From assembly GCA_945897885.1 (NCBI GenBank), contig CAMDGU010000031.1, forward strand, positions 1 through 34,572: DNA of 34,572 nucleotides, read 5' to 3'. Shown here one piece after another: positions 1-5,700 of this stretch. The stretch is from Chitinophaga pinensis. Lineage in GTDB: Bacteria > Bacteroidota > Bacteroidia > NS11-12g > UBA9320. Position 1 is the first letter of the stretch. Every line of letters starts with the position of its first letter. A program made the translations under genes and the position numbers. The notes under the pieces were generated by a model. The model did no database searches. It saw only the letters and a program-made list of their open reading frames with translations, and had not been told where the DNA came from.

Positions 1-58
1 AGTCAATTGCATTTTGAGCAACATCCGAAAAATCCGTAGGCACTAGTATTGTTTTCAT
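1..58 (-). CDS. Universal stress protein, N-terminal fragment (cut by window edge)
   Basis: Reading leftwards from the ATG at 58-56, the frame gives MKTILVPTDFSDVAQNAID and runs off the window. This is the classic first beta strand and nucleotide-binding loop of the UspA family (ILVPTDFS), almost the same as the start of the complete usp gene at 779. Only 19 residues are visible, so ATP binding and the number of Usp domains cannot be judged. Usp proteins are cytoplasmic stress and starvation proteins. A TAnnTTTG box lies 18 nt upstream of the start and a Crp/Fnr-like palindrome further up, so this is probably the first gene of its transcript. The family call is firm; the rest of the gene is unseen. 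Confidence 0.8.
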   Translation of the reverse strand, partial: MKTILVPTDFSDVAQNAID

Positions 59-75
59 TTAATTATTTACAGGTA

Positions 76-83
76 CAAAAGTA
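76..83 (-). promoter_or_regulatory. -7 promoter box of the left-edge usp gene
   Basis: The minus strand reads TACTTTTG, a full match to the Bacteroidota -7 consensus TAnnTTTG. The predicted transcript starts a few bases downstream and leaves a 5' leader of roughly 10-15 nt before the ATG at 58. Confidence 0.6.
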
Positions 84-128: not shown

Positions 129-140
129 TGATTTTAATCA
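129..140. promoter_or_regulatory. Crp/Fnr-like palindrome upstream of left-edge usp
   Basis: TGAT-TTTA-ATCA is a perfect TGAT/ATCA inverted repeat with a 4-base spacer, the layout of Fnr-type sites. Its centre (134.5) is 58.5 bases from the last base of the -7 box, exactly the spacing seen at the second usp gene. It fits a class I activator position near -61.5. Binding by the nearby REC-Crp regulator is an inference. Confidence 0.45.
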
Positions 141-156
141 GTTGCTTAATTTCAGG

Positions 157-564
157 CTAGTTAACTAAAATCCTTTCAATTTGGCTTATTAAAACCATTT
201 CCGATTTATTTTTTCCTGAAAATGATTCGGCAATTGCAAATGCTGTTTTTAATATTAATTTGTTAACTGAATCCGTAAACAAATGTTCGTGCCCTTGTTT
301 AAACAATTTAAACTCAGTTAAAAATTCGTCTGCATTTCTCCAATCTATTTGCACCAGCCAATCAAAAACCACTTCAATTTGAAAGGCAGCATCAGTTCCA
401 AACTGATCAATAGAATCATCTAAAGCAAGCCAATCGGATTGCATAAGTTTTTTAAGTTGATTCACTTCTTCCTCTCGAATAATATCATCAGCGGCAGCAA
501 TACTGTAAAACAATTTACCAAGGTGCTGATAAAACAGAATCATGGTTTCTTTTGATGGGTTCAT
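157..564 (-). CDS. TerB-like domain protein
   Basis: A 135-residue soluble, mostly helical protein with no signal peptide or membrane segment. The N-terminal part (about residues 10-50) has the pattern of TerB/DjlA-like helical domains: a hydrophobic helix, then AAADDIIREEEV, where an acidic/Ile motif leads into the next helix. TerB-like domains are linked to tellurite and general stress responses and may bind metal, but the biochemical role is open. It lies between the two usp genes and is divergent from the complete one, with an Fnr-like palindrome 56 bp upstream of its start. The ATG at 564 is the only good start. The family call is moderate because TerB-like sequences are weakly conserved. 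Confidence 0.6.
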   Translation of the reverse strand: MNPSKETMILFYQHLGKLFYSIAAADDIIREEEVNQLKKLMQSDWLALDDSIDQFGTDAAFQIEVVFDWLVQIDWRNADEFLTEFKLFKQGHEHLFTDSVNKLILKTAFAIAESFSGKNKSEMVLISQIERILVN

Positions 565-613
565 TCACTATTTATTTAGTTTGTAAAATAAGAACATAGT
601 CATCTATAAAAAA

Positions 614-627
614 TTGATAACTATCAT
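614..627. promoter_or_regulatory. Fnr-box-like palindrome in the TerB-like/usp divergent region
   Basis: TTGAT-AACT-ATCAT is one base from the textbook Fnr box TTGAT-N4-ATCAA. A weak -7 box for the leftward gene (TATTTTAC, minus strand, 590-583) has its end 37.5 bases from the site centre, which would place the site close to -41.5 (class II activator). Confidence 0.45.
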
Positions 628-689
628 CCCTCACACTGATCTTAATCATAAAATTTCAAAAATCAATTTCTGGAAAAAATTATTTATAT

Positions 690-703
690 ATGACTAATAT
701 CAT
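690..703. promoter_or_regulatory. Crp/Fnr-like palindrome upstream of usp (779)
   Basis: ATGAC-TAAT-ATCAT is an inverted repeat with one mismatch and shares its left arm and spacer (ATGACTAAT) with the site in front of tnaA. Its centre (696.5) is 58.5 bases before the last base of the -7 box at 748-755. Confidence 0.5.
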
Positions 704-747
704 GCTTAATTATGAACATTATCAATTCAAAAACACTCTCGTTCAAA

Positions 748-755
748 TAAATTTG
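748..755 (+). promoter_or_regulatory. -7 promoter box of usp (779)
   Basis: TAAATTTG matches TAnnTTTG exactly. The final G is the first base of an in-frame GTG at 755, so that GTG would lie in or before the transcription start and cannot be the real start codon. The ATG at 779 leaves a leader of about 20 nt. No clear -33 TTG is seen, as expected for an activator-dependent promoter. Confidence 0.6.
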
Positions 756-778
756 TGCAACCCAATCATCCAATAATT

Positions 779-1633
779 ATGAGCAATTGCATCCTTGTTC
801 CAACTGATTTTTCAAAAAATGCCTCTCATGCTTTTGACTATGCTATTATATTAGCAAAAAAGGAAAAGGCCAAAATTTTGCTACTTCATGCATATCATAT
901 TACCTATATAACACCTGATGTACCAGCCGATTTTATGGCTATAGAAATAGAAAATGCGGAAAAAACGGCCATCAAAAAGATGAAATTTCTTGTTGAAAAA
1001 ATCAAACATGAAAACTTGGAGTGTGAAGTTTTTTTAAGACAAGATATGGCAGTAGATTTAATTTTGGAGGTAGCCAAAGACAGACATCCTGATTTTATAG
1101 TAATAGGCACCACCGGGGCTAGCGGGCTTGAAGAAATTATAATGGGGAATATAACTGCCACAGTAATTGCAAAGGCCAAGTGCCCCGTAATTGCTGTTCC
1201 TAAAAAGGCATCTTTTAAGCATATTAAACACATTACTTACGCCACCGATTATTTGGTAAGCGATTTGTATGCCCTTAAAAAACTGGTTGAAATAGCTAAA
1301 TTATTTAATGCTACGATTACAGTGGTTCACATTTCAGGCGAACTATTAACGCATGAAAGCGAAGAAGAGTTTATGAATAAATTTAAAGCCAAGGTTAGAA
1401 AGAAAATAAAGTATGATGATATAGCCTATAAATTAATCTATGGTCGAAATTTTATAAATACCCTTGAAGAATATATCCTCCATGAATCCTCTGATTTATT
1501 AGCTATGTCAACACACCTCCAAAGTATCTATGATAAAATATTTGGAAAAAGTAACACAAAAAAAATGTCTTACCACTCCACAATACCCTTCCTTGCGTTC
1601 CATCATAAAAAAGAATCAGTAATTTTTATTTAG
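779..1633 (+). CDS. Universal stress protein, two Usp domains
   Basis: A 284-residue cytoplasmic protein starting at ATG 779. Domain 1 (about 1-145) begins CILVPTDFSKNASHAFDYA and carries GTTGASGLEEIIMGNIT, close to the G2xG9xG(S/T) ATP-binding signature but with Asn in place of the last Ser/Thr. Domain 2 (about 150-284) starts with the ITYATDY strand and has a more degenerate glycine region (STHLQSIYDKIFGKS), so it probably does not bind nucleotide in the usual way. Tandem Usp proteins are common in Bacteroidota and are usually induced by low oxygen, starvation or stress. An in-frame GTG at 755 is rejected because it overlaps the promoter box. The gene is followed 26 bp later by a small proline-rich ORF on the same strand. 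Confidence 0.88.
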   Translation: MSNCILVPTDFSKNASHAFDYAIILAKKEKAKILLLHAYHITYITPDVPADFMAIEIENAEKTAIKKMKFLVEKIKHENLECEVFLRQDMAVDLILEVAKDRHPDFIVIGTTGASGLEEIIMGNITATVIAKAKCPVIAVPKKASFKHIKHITYATDYLVSDLYALKKLVEIAKLFNATITVVHISGELLTHESEEEFMNKFKAKVRKKIKYDDIAYKLIYGRNFINTLEEYILHESSDLLAMSTHLQSIYDKIFGKSNTKKMSYHSTIPFLAFHHKKESVIFI

Positions 1634-1659
1634 GCTTGTTATAACCCATTTATTTTGTC

Positions 1660-1821
1660 ATGAATCCCAAACCAAAACCAGAAATAGAACCGGTTCCTAA
1701 AACCCCTGAACCTATTTTACCTCCTGAAATAATCCCTTTTCCTGAAACTGTTCCTAACCAACCCATGCCAGACATTTCACCTCCTCCAGATAATCCCGAG
1801 ATAGGGCCAATAAAAGATTAA
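1660..1821 (+). CDS. Small proline/glutamate-rich protein (53 aa)
   Basis: An ATG at 1660 opens a 53-codon frame ending TAA at 1819-1821. The product starts MNPKPKPEIEPVPK and goes on with dense Pro-Glu-Ile/Pro repeats (about one third proline), with no cysteine, membrane segment or signal peptide, so it should be extended and disordered. The strong composition bias, the clean start and the stop just before a bidirectional terminator argue that it is real, although it is too short for ordinary ORF cut-offs. Similar short Pro-rich hypotheticals occur in Bacteroidota, to my knowledge without a function. It lies 26 bp after usp and may be cotranscribed with it. Confidence 0.6.
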   Translation: MNPKPKPEIEPVPKTPEPILPPEIIPFPETVPNQPMPDISPPPDNPEIGPIKD

Positions 1822-1836
1822 AGAAAATTGAAAAAC

Positions 1837-1854
1837 AACTAAGGTTTCTTAGTT
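1837..1854. terminator. Bidirectional hairpin between convergent genes
   Basis: AACTAAG-GTTT-CTTAGTT forms a 7-bp stem with a 4-base loop. On the minus strand it is followed by GTTTTTC, which suits termination of the regulator gene ending at 1849. On the plus strand it follows the small Pro-rich ORF. The stem is AT-rich, so strength is uncertain. Confidence 0.45.
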
Positions 1855-2907
1855 TCTCATTTTTGAAAGCTTATCGTAATTTAAAATTGTGATTGTTCCG
1901 CCGGATACTTCAACGAATTTTTCATCTTTAAAGTCACTCAGGGTTCTTATAACCGTTTCGGTTGCTGTACCTACCAAATTAGCCAAATCTTCTCTTGAAA
2001 CATTCATGCTAAAAGTTTGGTCACCTTCTTTTTTATATTTATCAGAAAGTTTAACAAGCGCTTCGGCCACACGTTTTCTAACAGAATTATAGGCAAGTTT
2101 AACCAATTGCTTTTCGTTTTCACGTATGCTATTTGAAAGTATTTCTATAAACCTTCTTGAAACTTCGGCATTTTTAAAAATCAATGAAAAGAAATCATCC
2201 TTTGGAATCATAAAAATTTCAGAATCTTCTAAAGCAGATGCAGAACTTGAATATTTTTCATCCTGCAGAAGTGGTAAATAGCCGAAAAAATCACCTTCTT
2301 TGTGCAAGTCGGTAATAAGTTCTTTTCCAAATTCATTGGTTTGATATGATTTTATTTTGCCTTTGTTTACAAAATAAATCCCTTTAGCATAAGTACCTTC
2401 AAGGTAAATATCTTCTTTCTTTTTATAAACTCTTAAATCACGATTTTCTGAAAGCTTATTCAAGGATTCAATTCCCTTGGCTTCATTCATAAACTCACTG
2501 AAACCTGCAAAATTTTTCGCAAACTCTTTTCTTAGTATATCATTTTTTTTAAGCCTGCTCTCAATAGCGTTCAGCAATTCAACATCATCAAATGGTTTTG
2601 TTAAATAATCATCGGCTCCCATTTCCATTCCTTTTCTAAAATCATTTCGCTCAGCCTTGGCCGTTAAAAAAATAAAGGGAATACTTGATGTTTCTTCATT
2701 TTTTGACAACATGTGTAATACACCATGCCCATCCAATACCGGCATCATAATATCACAAATTATTAAATCGGGCTTTTCACTCTGAACAAGTTCTACTCCT
2801 TCTTTCCCGTTTTTTGCAGTTATTACATTATACTGAGCAAGAGTTAATATCTCTGCTGTATTTTCACGTACATCTTTGTTGTCTTCAATTAGTAGAATTT
2901 TCTTCAT
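1849..2907 (-). CDS. Response regulator with Crp/Fnr output (REC-cNBD-HTH)
   Basis: A 352-residue transcription factor starting at the ATG at 2907 (MKKILLIEDNKDV); a longer frame upstream overlaps the kinase gene and adds no recognisable domain. Residues 1-120 are a receiver domain: acidic pocket E8/D9, phosphoacceptor D52 (CDIMMP), T in FLTAK and the conserved Lys in LTKPF. Residues ~150-265 are a cyclic-nucleotide-binding-type beta roll, and ~285-350 a Crp winged helix. The recognition helix TATETVIRTL keeps the Glu and Arg that read TGA in Crp/Fnr but lacks the Crp Arg before Glu, which fits Fnr/FixK-like sites. The cNMP pocket Arg-Ser pair is missing and there are no Fe-S cysteines, so the signal probably comes by phosphorylation. 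It follows the kinase gene by 13 bp. Confidence 0.88.
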   Translation of the reverse strand: MKKILLIEDNKDVRENTAEILTLAQYNVITAKNGKEGVELVQSEKPDLIICDIMMPVLDGHGVLHMLSKNEETSSIPFIFLTAKAERNDFRKGMEMGADDYLTKPFDDVELLNAIESRLKKNDILRKEFAKNFAGFSEFMNEAKGIESLNKLSENRDLRVYKKKEDIYLEGTYAKGIYFVNKGKIKSYQTNEFGKELITDLHKEGDFFGYLPLLQDEKYSSSASALEDSEIFMIPKDDFFSLIFKNAEVSRRFIEILSNSIRENEKQLVKLAYNSVRKRVAEALVKLSDKYKKEGDQTFSMNVSREDLANLVGTATETVIRTLSDFKDEKFVEVSGGTITILNYDKLSKMRN

Positions 2908-2920
2908 TTTAATTTTATTA

Positions 2921-4090
2921 TTAAATAGTAATAGTAAACTCTGTTCCTTTATTTTCTTCGCTTTCAAAATCAATTGAGGCATCCAAAACCTCGGCATACT
3001 TGGCTACTATACTTAAGCCTAAACCTGTGCCTTGAATATGGGTTGCGTTATACCCCCTAAAAAAGCGTTCAAATAAATGCTTTTGATCCTCCTCATTTAT
3101 CCCAATCCCTTCATCTTTAACAAAAATCTTAACGGTAGAATTTTCTACAAGAGTAGAAACCCAAATTCCACCACCATCGTGTGAGTATTTCATGGCATTG
3201 GAAACCAAATTGAATAAAATATTTTTTATTAATTTTTTATCAAGAAAAACAGCTTCTTCACCAACATGGGTGTATTCTATTTTTTGATTCTTTTTTATGG
3301 TAGCTTGCATATCTGCCAACAAATCACCTATAAAAGTTTTTAAATTAAAATCACTTGGATCGTTAATAATTTTACCTTCCTCTAGTTTGGCCAATGATAA
3401 AAAGTCATTCAGTATTTCTGTTAAATTATTTATTGAGGATTTTAATTTGTTTACATGCTTGGTTTGGCTTTCTAAATCTTTATTTTCTCCATATCTGGTA
3501 ATTAATGACAGTGAAGAAAGCATAGTGGTAAGCGGAGTTCTAAACTCATGAGATGCCATGGAAAGAAATCTTGATTTTAATTCGTTTAATTCCCTTTCCT
3601 TTTCAAGCGATTTGTGCAAATCCGTTTTGGTTCTCTCAAGCTCCTCAATGGCCTCTTCCAAAATAAGAGTCCTATTTCTTACTTGCTTTTTTAATTCCGC
3701 CGAGTATTCACGCTGTTGTTTCTCATTGTCTTTTCGGGCTGTAATATCTGAAATAAATGCAATTACAAAATTACCTTCATTCGTTTTGAAAGGACTTAAA
3801 CTAATTTCAACCGGAAACTCAACGCCATCCTTTTTTATAGCCAGCAAATCTAAATTTCCGCCCATTCGTCGAGGTTTATGATTATATCCTCCTCTTTGCG
3901 CTGTATGATTTTCAGTATACCTTTGAGGAATTAAAATTTCTACCTTTTGACCTAGAATTTCATCCTTATCATACCCGAATAATTTTTCGGCACTGGGATT
4001 CATCCGGATTATTTCACCCTTGTCATCTAACACCAAAATCCCTTCTGTGGCATACAGGAAAAGAGGATCGCTATTTTGGGAATAATTCAT
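2921..4090 (-). CDS. Cytoplasmic PAS sensor histidine kinase
   Basis: A 389-residue protein without membrane segments. Residues ~5-115 form a PAS domain (AEKLFGYDKDEILGQ, then FVIAFISDITARK), followed by a coiled coil (~118-170). The HisKA helix has the phosphoacceptor H181 in ASHEFRTPL. The HATPase domain (~270-389) has the N box (NILFNLVSNAMKYS), G1 (DEGIGI) and G2 (GTGLGLSIV). It is therefore expected to autophosphorylate and pass phosphate to the REC-Crp regulator encoded 13 bp downstream. The PAS ligand is unknown, and I see no heme or flavin signature that decides it. The first Met (4090) is a natural start. No terminator that works on this strand separates it from tnaA, 102 bp upstream, so read-through is possible. 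Confidence 0.9.
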   Translation of the reverse strand: MNYSQNSDPLFLYATEGILVLDDKGEIIRMNPSAEKLFGYDKDEILGQKVEILIPQRYTENHTAQRGGYNHKPRRMGGNLDLLAIKKDGVEFPVEISLSPFKTNEGNFVIAFISDITARKDNEKQQREYSAELKKQVRNRTLILEEAIEELERTKTDLHKSLEKERELNELKSRFLSMASHEFRTPLTTMLSSLSLITRYGENKDLESQTKHVNKLKSSINNLTEILNDFLSLAKLEEGKIINDPSDFNLKTFIGDLLADMQATIKKNQKIEYTHVGEEAVFLDKKLIKNILFNLVSNAMKYSHDGGGIWVSTLVENSTVKIFVKDEGIGINEEDQKHLFERFFRGYNATHIQGTGLGLSIVAKYAEVLDASIDFESEENKGTEFTITI

Positions 4091-4192
4091 AAGAAATAAA
4101 GGATTACGCTGGCAGCGAATTTAATCTTTTCACATATCTATTTTTACTCATAGAGTATTTTTTCTGGAATTAACTTTTAAACCCAAAAACTA

Positions 4193-5563
4193 TCAAAATG
4201 TAGTAAGTTTAGCTGTAAAATGCCTAAGCATAGGAGCCTCTTCTACTATTTTTAACCCTACAATTTCCTTACGTTTGTTGTATACTTCAATGATTACTTC
4301 GGATACATAATCAATGTGGCTCTGAGTATACACACGGCGTGGAATTGCCAAACGCACCAATTCCATTGGTGCCGGCATTAAATTATGGTTGTCATCATAT
4401 TTACCAAACATCAGCGAACCTATTTCAACCCCGCGAATACCTCCTTCTATGTACAAAGCTCCCACCAATGCCTGCCCGGGATATTGATTTACAGGGATAT
4501 GCGATAAAAATTCTTTGGCATCAAGATACACCGCATGTCCACCACCTGGCTGCATTACCGGAACCCCGGCATTAACCAGCTTTTCTGTAATATACTCAAT
4601 GCTTCTTATACGATAATGTAAATAATTTTCGTCCATTACCTCTTCCAACCCTATGGCTATAGCTTCTAAATCTCTGCCGGCTAGGCCACCATAAGTAGGA
4701 AAACCTTCGGTTATAACCAATAAATTCCGACACCTTTGGGCAAGGTTTTTATCATGCATGGCCAAAAACCCGCCAATATTGGCAAAGGCATCTTTTTTAG
4801 CACTCATCGTGCATCCGTCACCATACGAAAAAAGCTCACTTACTATTTCCGGTATCGACTTATTTTCATACCCTTTCTCTCTTATTTTTATAAAATAGCA
4901 GTTTTCGGCAAAGCGGCAGGCATCAATAAATAGTGGCACGCCAAAATCGGTGCAAATTTTTCTTACTTCTCTCACATTCTCCATACTTACAGGTTGACCT
5001 CCACCTGAATTATTGGTAACAGTAACGATGCAAAGTGGAATATTTTCAGCTCCCTTTTCAATAATAAATTTCCGTAAAGCATCGGTATCCATATTCCCTT
5101 TAAATGGTGCCGGTGTGGAGATATGTTTTCCTTCTTCACATAATAAGTCAACCCCTTCAGCTCCTGAAAATTCAATATTGGCTCGTGTGGTATCAAACAG
5201 GGTATTACTTACAAAATATTTACCCTTTCCACCCAATATGCTAAACAATATTTTTTCAGCTGCCCGGCCTTGATGCGTGGGGATTACAATTGGCATTCCA
5301 GTAATTTTTTGAACCTGGACTTCAAACCTAAAAAAGCTTGGGCTACCTGCATAGGATTCATCTCCTTGCATAATACCGGCCCATTGGTTACTGCTCATAG
5401 CACTGGTTCCGCTATCGGTTAGCAGGTCTATTATTACATCATCCGATTTTAGTAAAAAGGAATTAAAGTGGGCTTCCTTTAGCAGATTAATACGTTGTTC
5501 TTTGGTTGTAAAATGAATAGGTTCTACAGATTTTATTTTAAAGGGTTCAATAATGGTTTGCAT
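4193..5563 (-). CDS. tnaA: Tryptophanase
   Basis: A 456-residue PLP enzyme of the beta-eliminating lyase family. It converts L-tryptophan to indole, pyruvate and ammonia in the cytoplasm. PLP Lys is K257 in TMSAKKDAFANIGG, with PTHQGR (phosphate binding) and FIDACRFAEN also present. Length and numbering equal tyrosine phenol-lyase, so the two must be told apart. The residue aligned with Thr124 of phenol-lyase is Asp (TLFDTTR, D124), and the region of phenol-lyase Arg381 reads GVEIG, as in tryptophanase. Both point to tnaA. It is upstream of the kinase-regulator genes on the same strand. A perfect Crp/Fnr-like palindrome lies about 130 bp upstream of the start, recalling catabolite control of tnaA in enterobacteria. 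No tryptophan permease gene is adjacent. Confidence 0.93.
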   Translation of the reverse strand: MQTIIEPFKIKSVEPIHFTTKEQRINLLKEAHFNSFLLKSDDVIIDLLTDSGTSAMSSNQWAGIMQGDESYAGSPSFFRFEVQVQKITGMPIVIPTHQGRAAEKILFSILGGKGKYFVSNTLFDTTRANIEFSGAEGVDLLCEEGKHISTPAPFKGNMDTDALRKFIIEKGAENIPLCIVTVTNNSGGGQPVSMENVREVRKICTDFGVPLFIDACRFAENCYFIKIREKGYENKSIPEIVSELFSYGDGCTMSAKKDAFANIGGFLAMHDKNLAQRCRNLLVITEGFPTYGGLAGRDLEAIAIGLEEVMDENYLHYRIRSIEYITEKLVNAGVPVMQPGGGHAVYLDAKEFLSHIPVNQYPGQALVGALYIEGGIRGVEIGSLMFGKYDDNHNLMPAPMELVRLAIPRRVYTQSHIDYVSEVIIEVYNKRKEIVGLKIVEEAPMLRHFTAKLTTF

Positions 5564-5586
5564 AAAATGAATAATAAAAAGAAAGT

Positions 5587-5627
5587 AAAAAAACGTGGTC
5601 GCAGTTGGATCTACTAAGAAGGGCGAC
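5587..5627 (-). terminator. Possible attenuator hairpin before tnaA
   Basis: On the minus strand GTCGC (5627-5623) can pair with GCGAC (5602-5598) around a 20-nt loop, followed after 4 nt by seven T (5593-5587). The stem is short and the gap before the T run is not ideal, so this is a weak candidate. Its 5' arm lies inside the candidate leader ORF at 5649-5614. Confidence 0.25.
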
Positions 5628-5649
5628 TAATGATATTTTTCCAAATCAT
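5614..5649 (-). CDS. Candidate tnaA leader peptide (11 aa, contains Trp)
   Basis: Between the predicted tnaA promoter and the tnaA start, an ATG at 5649 opens MIWKNIISRPS and stops at TAG (5616-5614), 50 bp before the tnaA ATG. Enterobacterial TnaC is a Trp-containing leader that stalls ribosomes at its Pro-stop end when tryptophan is abundant. This peptide shares only a Trp and a near-terminal Arg-Pro, and its Trp-to-Pro spacing (7) is shorter than in TnaC (12), so homology is not claimed. Its 8th and 9th codons form one arm of the hairpin listed at 5587-5627. It could equally be a chance ORF. Confidence 0.25.
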   Translation of the reverse strand: MIWKNIISRPS

Positions 5650-5656
5650 CGTGATG

Positions 5657-5664
5657 CAAAGGTG
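5657..5664 (-). promoter_or_regulatory. Likely -7 box of tnaA (weak)
   Basis: The minus strand reads CACCTTTG, one mismatch from TAnnTTTG. The centre of the palindrome at 5687-5700 is 36.5 bases from the last base of this box, which puts the palindrome near -41.5, the class II activator position. Confidence 0.4.
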
Positions 5665-5686
5665 ACTATAGCAAAGCAATTAAAAT

Positions 5687-5700
5687 ATGACTAATGTCAT
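5687..5700. promoter_or_regulatory. Perfect Crp/Fnr-like palindrome upstream of tnaA
   Basis: ATGAC-TAAT-GTCAT is a perfect 5-bp inverted repeat with a 4-base spacer. TGAC-N4-GTCA is the layout of FixK/DNR-type Crp-Fnr sites. The left arm and spacer match the site at 690-703 in front of usp. Confidence 0.55.

Follow-up and report, generated by a model that had tools for sequence, protein, structure and literature searches.

A TGAY-N4-RTCA palindrome as a predicted operator of receiver-bearing Crp/Fnr-type regulators in Bacteroidota

The window (the whole 34,572-nt stretch of DNA analysed here) contains five copies of the palindrome TGAY-N4-RTCA, which very probably bind a Crp/Fnr-type switch equipped with a phosphorylation domain. 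Sites of this kind recur in Bacteroidota in front of genes for stress proteins, low-oxygen respiration and indole production, often at a distance that would suit an activator. We consider it likely that TGA-reading Crp/Fnr activators, together with a PAS kinase, govern a low-oxygen or energy-stress regulon through these palindromes.

Palindromes and genes of the window

A preliminary description of this DNA had placed four palindromes in four separate intergenic regions, ahead of usp1, a TerB-like gene, usp2 and tnaA. All four were found at the expected positions (Table 1), together with a fifth that had been overlooked, 22 bp from the second. All five are intergenic (the intergenic total is 4,033 bases), but they occupy three regions rather than four, since those at 615, 637 and 691 all fall between the divergent TerB-like and usp2 genes. 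They all lie within 2.8 kb of the gene for a Crp-type regulator with a receiver domain (REC-Crp). No site was found in the 102-bp gap upstream of the kinase gene. Shuffled windows contained 1.78 palindromes on average, and enrichment inside the window alone is weak, borderline evidence against chance. Across this genome, the bare core was mildly enriched, with 159 matches compared to 125 for the reversed control. The own-genome background was drawn from a 400-kb sample of 3.03 Mb. Genes were called with a simple ORF script, and gene starts and intergenic borders are therefore approximate.

Table 1. Features of the window, in positions of the 34,572-nt stretch; operators are predicted.
Feature	Position	Strand	Remarks
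usp1, 5' part	1..58	-	Runs off contig end; ATG at 58-56; name from the preliminary description; ~19 codons in the window
usp1 -7 box TACTTTTG	76..83	-	Exact; offset 51 from centre of 129-140 site, site at ~-63.5
Operator 1 TGATTTTAATCA	129..140	.	Centre to usp1 ATG, 76 bp
TerB-like gene, 135 aa	157..564	-	Relatives at REC-Crp loci L054 and L284
Operator 2a TGATAACTATCA	615..626	.	Distance to TerB-like ATG, 56 bp
Operator 2b TGATCTTAATCA	637..648	.	Tandem with 2a, 22 bp; absent from the preliminary description
Operator 3 TGACTAATATCA, usp2	691..702	.	Inside 14-bp palindrome 690-703
usp2 -7 box TAAATTTG	748..755	+	Exact; offset 51 from operator 3
usp2, universal stress protein	779..1633	+	Pfam Usp E 2.7e-32 (longer ORF 755-1633 searched)
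REC-cNMP-HTH_Crp regulator, 352 aa	1849..2907	-	Start set at 2907; listed ORF from 2997
PAS histidine kinase, 389 aa	2921..4090	-	13 bp upstream of regulator gene
tnaA	4193..5563	-	Tryptophanase by D124/I381/H448
tnaA -7-like box CACCTTTG	5657..5664	-	Imperfect by one base; operator 4 at offset 29, which puts it at -41.5
Operator 4 TGACTAATGTCA, tnaA	5688..5699	.	Inside 14-bp palindrome 5687-5700

Spacing and promoter position in other genomes

The four-base spacer is specific. Among 27 REC-Crp loci taken from other genomes (L055, from the window's own genome, was left out), we counted 56 intergenic TGAY-N4-RTCA sites, compared to 0–9 for 12 other spacers. In 79 further named Bacteroidota loci (leaving out L276, which is the same contig as G051), there were 180 intergenic N4 sites and 4–15 with other spacers; 66 of these loci had an intergenic site and 13 had none. 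In 58 genomes, tandem sites numbered 66, compared to 5 in the control, with a spacing of 22 bp in 49 cases; four of the cases at 21 bp belong to one repeat array in a single genome (G039).

Most proximal site–gene pairs lack an exact Bacteroidota -7 box, but when the box is present, it mostly begins 29 or 51 bp past the site centre. Among 115 proximal pairs, 26 of 43 exact boxes were at offsets 29, 40, 51 or 52, where shuffling gave a mean of 1.5 and a maximum of 7 (2000 shuffles). The second set of 161 pairs had 67 exact boxes, 42 of them at the same offsets (shuffle mean 2.4, maximum 8). The combined pattern site-N23-TANNTTTG occurred 113 times, compared to 3 in the control (58 genomes). According to PMC6847099, the T of the Bacteroidota -7 element lies at -12; an offset of 29 thus places the site at -41.5, and an offset of 51 corresponds to -63.5. 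These positions support activator spacing. The regulon proposed in the preliminary description is supported for usp1, usp2 and tnaA, each of which carries an in-phase site, but not for the TerB-like gene, which has tandem sites, yet no -7 box within one mismatch. The TerB-like label is itself weak: the window protein has no TerB match at E-values up to 5, and its relative at locus L054 matches PF05099 below the cut-off (E = 3e-4). In one fold comparison, the best chain for the structural model (pLDDT 83) was a tellurite resistance protein, 2ou3 (Z 6.2, rmsd 4.7, 106 residues aligned), tied with unrelated helical folds.

The regulator, its kinase and the candidate target genes

Matches to PF00027 (E = 6.7e-22) and PF13545 (E = 2.2e-17) place the regulator in the Crp/Fnr superfamily, and the receiver domain described previously was borne out by PF00072 (E = 7.1e-30). 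The receiver residues D9, D52 and K104 are invariant among 12 aligned sequences, in keeping with a response regulator, whose receiver domain has a phospho-acceptor Asp and a conserved Lys. As had been proposed, the recognition helix, GTATETVIR, keeps the Glu and Arg that read TGA and lacks the Arg with which Crp demands TGTGA. The Arg-Glu-xxx-Arg helix of a TGTGA reader has Thr in place of its first Arg here, at what we take to be the position of Crp Arg180. The predicted lack of Fe-S cysteines was likewise upheld: the N-terminal cysteine cluster of an Fe-S FNR is missing, and the only Cys of the protein, Cys51, lies in the receiver domain.

The preliminary description named the regulator as the sole Crp-type one in the window; a search across the genome showed a second REC-Crp on contig C13, 46% identical to that of the window, with the helix GTSPESVSR and with sites around its gene, and a third Crp-type gene on contig C58. 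Of the three genes found, those for the two REC-Crp proteins alone encode the Glu and Arg that read TGA. By elimination, these two would be the readers of the sites, and the C13 paralog may read some of them.

In the PAS domain of the window kinase, a His aligns with the proximal haem His of FixL, as in 82 of 86 aligned partner PAS domains. The distal Arg of FixL is Leu in the window kinase and Arg in 36 of the 86. Partner kinases often look like the haem kinase FixL. The kinase/REC-Crp pair is present in the named genera Dyadobacter, Pontibacter, Chitinophaga, Rufibacter and Emticicia. In 11 of 28 loci of the order, this pair has genes for the cbb3 oxidase as neighbours, and the operator stands before ccoI and ccoNO in 9/16 and 6/11 cases, respectively, in the 79-locus set, and in 4/6 and 2/7 in the 27-locus set. 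The cco operon of this genome has no site, even when one mismatch is allowed. In other genera, the same oxidase-operon slot is filled by a cysteine-bearing Fnr-like protein. Descent of one type from the other in this order was rejected, as one well-supported branch separates them in a tree of 38 rows with long branches and a midpoint root. Thus, the slot and the operator are common to both types, while a recent common regulator is unsupported. This slot, filled by either kind of regulator, provides a natural setting in which to compare two sensors of a single operator.

Genes for universal stress proteins occur within 6 kb of REC-Crp in 30 of the 79 named loci. An immediate site was enriched at usp genes in this set (16/42 vs. 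92/512, p = 0.003) and not in the 27-locus set (2/19 vs. 33/325). PMC2908626 counts uspA and cbb3 among the core members of the FNR regulon predicted for alphaproteobacteria, and control of usp is therefore not new in kind. As for the suggestion that a link between usp and indole production under one system is undescribed, Fnr-type control of usp is known; no tnaA/usp/Fnr link was found in titles and abstract openings among the matches listed. The same scope yielded no receiver-Crp regulator and no such operator for Bacteroidota.

The window tnaA has Asp, Ile and His at residues 124, 381 and 448, as in tryptophanase; these residues separate tryptophanase from tyrosine phenol-lyase (TPL), which has Thr, Arg and Phe, and TPL was rejected on this basis. 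The top PDB match is a tryptophanase, and the protein passes the cut-off of the NCBIfam subfamily model "tryptophanase" (PRK13238), with the TnaA and TPL equivalog cut-offs unreached. We compared 34 tnaA-family genes, comprising nine from the order and 25 taken from the top-scoring loci of a class search that matched 99 of 295 genomes, which is not a random sample and in which one row (L365) is apparently a neighbouring TPL. An N4 site was present within 300 bp of 13 of the 34, compared to 0–4 with other spacers, and eight of these were phased at exactly 29. Such genes bear the motif recurrently. At one locus (L289), tandem sites and an in-phase CACCTTTG precede a tightly spaced 249-128-TPL-tnaA run.

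Alternative readings and known systems

That AT-rich intergenic DNA should have yielded these palindromes by accident is extremely improbable. Although 5 of 100 shuffles reached the window count of five, two locus sets showed spacer specificity, tandem spacing and promoter phasing, on which chance was rejected for the motif as a class. An accidental site at tnaA, leaving a regulon of usp1 and usp2 and perhaps the TerB-like gene, is improbable to a lesser degree. Six of nine orthologues in the order, including two from the same genus (G001 and G002), have no site within 500 bp; in one of the six (G006), the nearest site precedes a gene of 123 aa that lies upstream of tnaA. The window tnaA box is imperfect. 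Against this stand the recurrence and phasing in the 34-gene set and the fact that tnaA adjoins REC-Crp in G006 and lies no more than 6 kb away in L289.

The most serious rival, which we judge somewhat unlikely, is that the palindromes are general Bacteroidota Crp/Fnr boxes open to any TGA-type reader, with the C13 paralog, rather than the window REC-Crp, reading some or all of them here. Genomes that lack a full-length REC-Crp likewise have tandem sites or phased promoters, the Fnr-like proteins in the cco slot carry GTATET.IR-type helices, and the C13 paralog has its own helix and surrounding sites. We rejected a motif exclusive to REC-Crp genomes. The presence of tnaA sites did not track REC-Crp either (found in 8 of the 13 genomes that have a tnaA site and in 16 of the 21 that have none, p = 0.45, full-length REC-Crp scored by eye), and the discriminating test set out in the preliminary description, that the motif precede usp, terB-like and tnaA genes only where REC-Crp is present, thus fails. 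However, sites are concentrated at REC-Crp loci, as they are around the window regulator, and the comparison with relatives and named Bacteroidota loci supports an operator of the Crp/Fnr class that is concentrated near the genes for REC-Crp.

The preferred reading takes REC-Crp as the switch. Its receiver domain would receive a phosphate from the PAS kinase, and the REC-Crp dimer would occupy TGAY-N4-RTCA sites, which at some genes form a 22-bp tandem. From -41.5 (class II) or about -63.5, the dimer would recruit RNA polymerase. A low-oxygen or energy-stress programme would result, with oxygen as the putative signal; it would include cbb3 genes in many relatives, usp genes and, in several lineages of which this is one, tnaA.

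The functional logic would be that of rhizobial FixL–FixJ–FixK, with FixJ and FixK fused into one protein. A FixL-like haem-pocket PAS kinase in part of the relatives, a Crp/Fnr-type output, and cbb3 genes as neighbours and apparent targets are common to both systems. Here, however, receiver and Crp-type DNA-binding domain are in one protein with no separate FixJ, the window PAS lacks the distal Arg, and usp and tnaA belong to the proposed regulon. FNR recognizes a TGA-N6-TCA core and acts from -41.5. Proteobacterial FNR/ANR regulons share this core and position with the present sites, but the window regulator lacks the N-terminal cysteine cluster and is presumably controlled by phosphorylation. 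The cbb3 and uspA genes are a further likeness, as core members in PMC2908626. The MalR-type CRP/FNR homologs of Bacteroidota, predicted carbon sensors scanned with a MalR motif, share superfamily and phylum with the window regulator, but no receiver-domain fusion was found in the available part of PMC8510549.

Escherichia coli CRP activates tnaA, which encodes tryptophanase. A Crp-family protein is predicted to do the same here, but one with a receiver domain, without the TGTGA-reading Arg, and at a different promoter class. The pattern TGAY-N4-RTCA, N23, TAnnTTTG would allow prediction of Crp/Fnr-type activated promoters in Bacteroidota. More tentatively, the observations may reflect a phylum-wide form of low-oxygen control, with a haem kinase resembling FixL that acts directly on a receiver-bearing Fnr/FixK activator. 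In some genera, this activator would fill, with the same operator, the oxidase-operon slot that a cysteine-bearing Fnr-like protein has elsewhere, and in several lineages it would also switch on tnaA. If true, such a system would couple the production of indole to oxygen or to energy stress.

Specificity of the palindromic motif

The preliminary description positioned all four of its palindromes correctly, but the four intergenic regions that it assigned to them are in fact three, and there is a fifth palindrome, spaced 22 bp from that at 615. The five core matches in the window compare with a shuffle mean of 1.78, and five or more occurred in 5 of 100 shuffles. Judged on the window alone, the palindromes are weak evidence. 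The whole genome holds 159 bare-core matches versus 125 for the reversed control.

Loci of the receiver-Crp regulator (REC-Crp) were collected from relatives, and all spacers from 0 to 12 were scanned. In 27 loci from other genomes (505 kb, of which 45 kb is intergenic), TGAY-N4-RTCA occurred 56 times between genes, compared to 0 to 9 times for the twelve other spacers and 2 for the reversed control at N4. A separate collection of 79 further loci, from which L276 was left out as a duplicate of G051, gave 180 intergenic N4 sites, versus 4 to 15 for other spacers and 4 for the control, with at least one site in 66 loci. In 400 kb sampled from the genome of the window, there were 6 N4 matches versus 0 to 5 at other spacers; thus, the signal clusters around the regulator. 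Tandem site pairs numbered 66 versus 5 in the control (58 genomes). Their spacing was 22 bp in 49 pairs, and four pairs at 21 bp form a single repeat array in one genome, G039. From these counts, we conclude that the motif is real. Three of 80 REC-Crp loci (L275, L319 and L337) belong to metagenome bins labelled proteobacterial, which may reflect wrong binning or transfer.

Position of the sites relative to promoters

The Bacteroidota −7 element is given as TANNTTTG, with its T at −12, in PMC6847099. Among 115 proximal site-gene pairs there were 43 exact elements, 15 of them at an offset (site centre to start of the −7 box) of 29; a further three had offset 40, and eight had 51 or 52. These 26 compare with a mean of 1.5 and a maximum of 7 when distances were shuffled among genes (2000 shuffles). 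The second set (161 pairs) yielded 67 exact elements, 16 at offset 29 and 25 at 51, with 42 at the four offsets versus a shuffle mean of 2.4 and maximum of 8. Offset 29 places the site centre at −41.5 and offset 51 at −63.5, and the difference between them equals the 22-bp tandem spacing. The composite site-N23-TANNTTTG occurred 113 times versus 3 (58 genomes). Most proximal pairs have no exact −7 element, which may reflect promoter variation or wrong gene starts. By this phasing, the sites are at what would be activator positions.

Sites, −7 boxes and other genes discussed in the text
Feature	Coordinates	−7 box	Remark
usp1 site	129-140	TACTTTTG	exact, offset 51
TerB-like gene, tandem	615-626, 637-648		no box at ≤1 mismatch
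usp2 site	691-702	TAAATTTG	exact, offset 51
tnaA site	5688-5699	CACCTTTG	one mismatch, offset 29
Second tnaA-family gene, window genome	G000:C28:20409-21752		tyrosine phenol-lyase residues; no site within 500 bp
Small protein family (120-140 aa)	L047:8532-8903; L048:14575-14943; L048:17438-17857; L284:7566-7937
144-aa gene preceding cco operon, window genome	G000:C9 (L181:11538-11972)		start MFSKSCEYAIKAMIFVAQ
204-aa protein gene, window genome and G006	G000:C95 (L125:3694-4308); G006:C2 (L128:6595-7209)		three sites nearby in both

Genes adjoining the sites

Genes of the cbb3 oxidase (cco) adjoin the regulator-kinase pair in 11 of 28 loci from the order, two of these having a ccoG relative only. 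In the 79 loci, immediate sites preceded ccoI in 9 of 16 cases, ccoNO in 6 of 11, usp in 16 of 42, the kinase gene in 31 of 70 and other genes in 92 of 512. The corresponding counts in the 27 loci were 4/6 (ccoI), 2/7 (ccoNO), 2/19 (usp) and 33/325 (others); the few usp sites may be due to usp genes standing behind others in a run. The cco operon of the window's own genome has no TGAY-N4-RTCA site; the gene preceding it may encode an Rrf2-like protein. Other site neighbors in this genome or in the relative G006 include a TonB receptor with HmuY, CBS, phasin-like, Hsp20, GH130 and Fer4/NrfD genes. The 204-aa protein has weak apolipophorin-III similarity (scan of the L125 copy).

Two REC-Crp loci besides that of the window contain relatives of the TerB-like gene. 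In L284, the relative and a usp gene form one tightly spaced run, with a tandem and an in-phase one-mismatch box upstream; in G006 (L054), a tandem with a one-mismatch box likewise lies upstream. The small protein family is a recurrent neighbor of REC-Crp, TerB-like, usp or tnaA genes, and three of its four members directly follow a site with an in-phase box. A Pfam scan of two members at E up to 5 gave no match, and one further member had weak matches only.

The window tnaA product carries Asp124, Ile381 and His448. Its orthologues agree, except that Val may replace Ile, versus Thr, Arg and Phe, where readable, in the paralogous group. By these residues, which distinguish tryptophanase from tyrosine phenol-lyase (TPL), the window enzyme is a tryptophanase, although it falls short of the NCBIfam equivalog cut-offs. 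A site lies within 300 bp of tnaA in three of nine orthologues from the order (the window's own, G011 and G009), and in all three a one-mismatch box stands at exactly offset 29. The G006 site is in front of a 123-aa gene that itself lies upstream of tnaA, and the remaining five orthologues have no site. With 25 loci from the class added, 13 of 34 tnaA-family genes had an N4 site within 300 bp, versus 0 to 4 for other spacers, and 8 of the 13 had a box (≤1 mismatch) at offset 29. In L289, a tandem with an in-phase CACCTTTG is followed by a run of 249-aa, 128-aa, TPL and tnaA genes. The G006 counterpart of the second tnaA-family gene has a site and an exact box at offset 29. Receiver-less Crp/Fnr-type genes occur at most about 1.5 kb from tnaA in G062:C98, G145:C181 and G224:C9.

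The predicted reader of the sites and its partner kinase

The window regulator consists of a receiver, a cNMP-binding domain and a Crp HTH, in that order, with the recognition helix GTATETVIR; receiver residues D9, D52 and K104 are invariant (12 aligned). The motif had been expected to follow this regulator from genome to genome. It did not: tandem sites occur in G019, G024 and G030, and composite sites in others (e.g., G003, G004, G040 and G057), in which no full-length REC-Crp was found, and among genomes with a tnaA site 8 of 13 had REC-Crp, versus 16 of 21 genomes lacking such a site (Fisher p 0.45). In G038, G039 and G044, ccoG, a ≈140-aa gene and a DsbD-like gene precede the regulator-kinase pair, and in six loci from other genera (L211-L215, L218) the DsbD-like gene is followed by one for a protein that has a similar helix and, N-terminally, a cluster of cysteines. 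The two regulator types are separated in a tree, so they would share slot and operator without a recent common ancestor. Two features of the window genome also speak against the preliminary description: the lack of a site at its cco operon, and a second REC-Crp whose helix is compatible. The third Crp-type gene of this genome lacks the Glu; by elimination, either REC-Crp protein is the predicted reader here.

The core FNR regulon predicted for alphaproteobacteria includes uspA and cbb3 (PMC2908626), and a study of CRP/FNR homologs in one microbiome used a MalR motif and assigned those of Flavobacteriales and Saprospiraceae genomes to carbon sensing (PMC8510549). None of the matches listed by a literature search describes a receiver-Crp regulator with a TGAY-N4-RTCA operator in Bacteroidota.

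In 76 of 79 named loci, the retrieved stretch also includes a PAS kinase relative. The FixL haem His is kept in 82 of 86 alignable partner PAS domains (101 kinases collected), and the FixL Arg position is Arg in 36, Met in 25 and Leu in 12. The PAS of L036 matches FixL structures at E 2.8e-29. The window PAS keeps the His, has Leu at the Arg position and gives weaker matches to haem PAS chains; its best chain is a multi-sensor kinase PAS with no stated ligand. On these residues and matches, oxygen sensing by the window kinase is uncertain, and it is likely for the partner kinases of part of the relatives.
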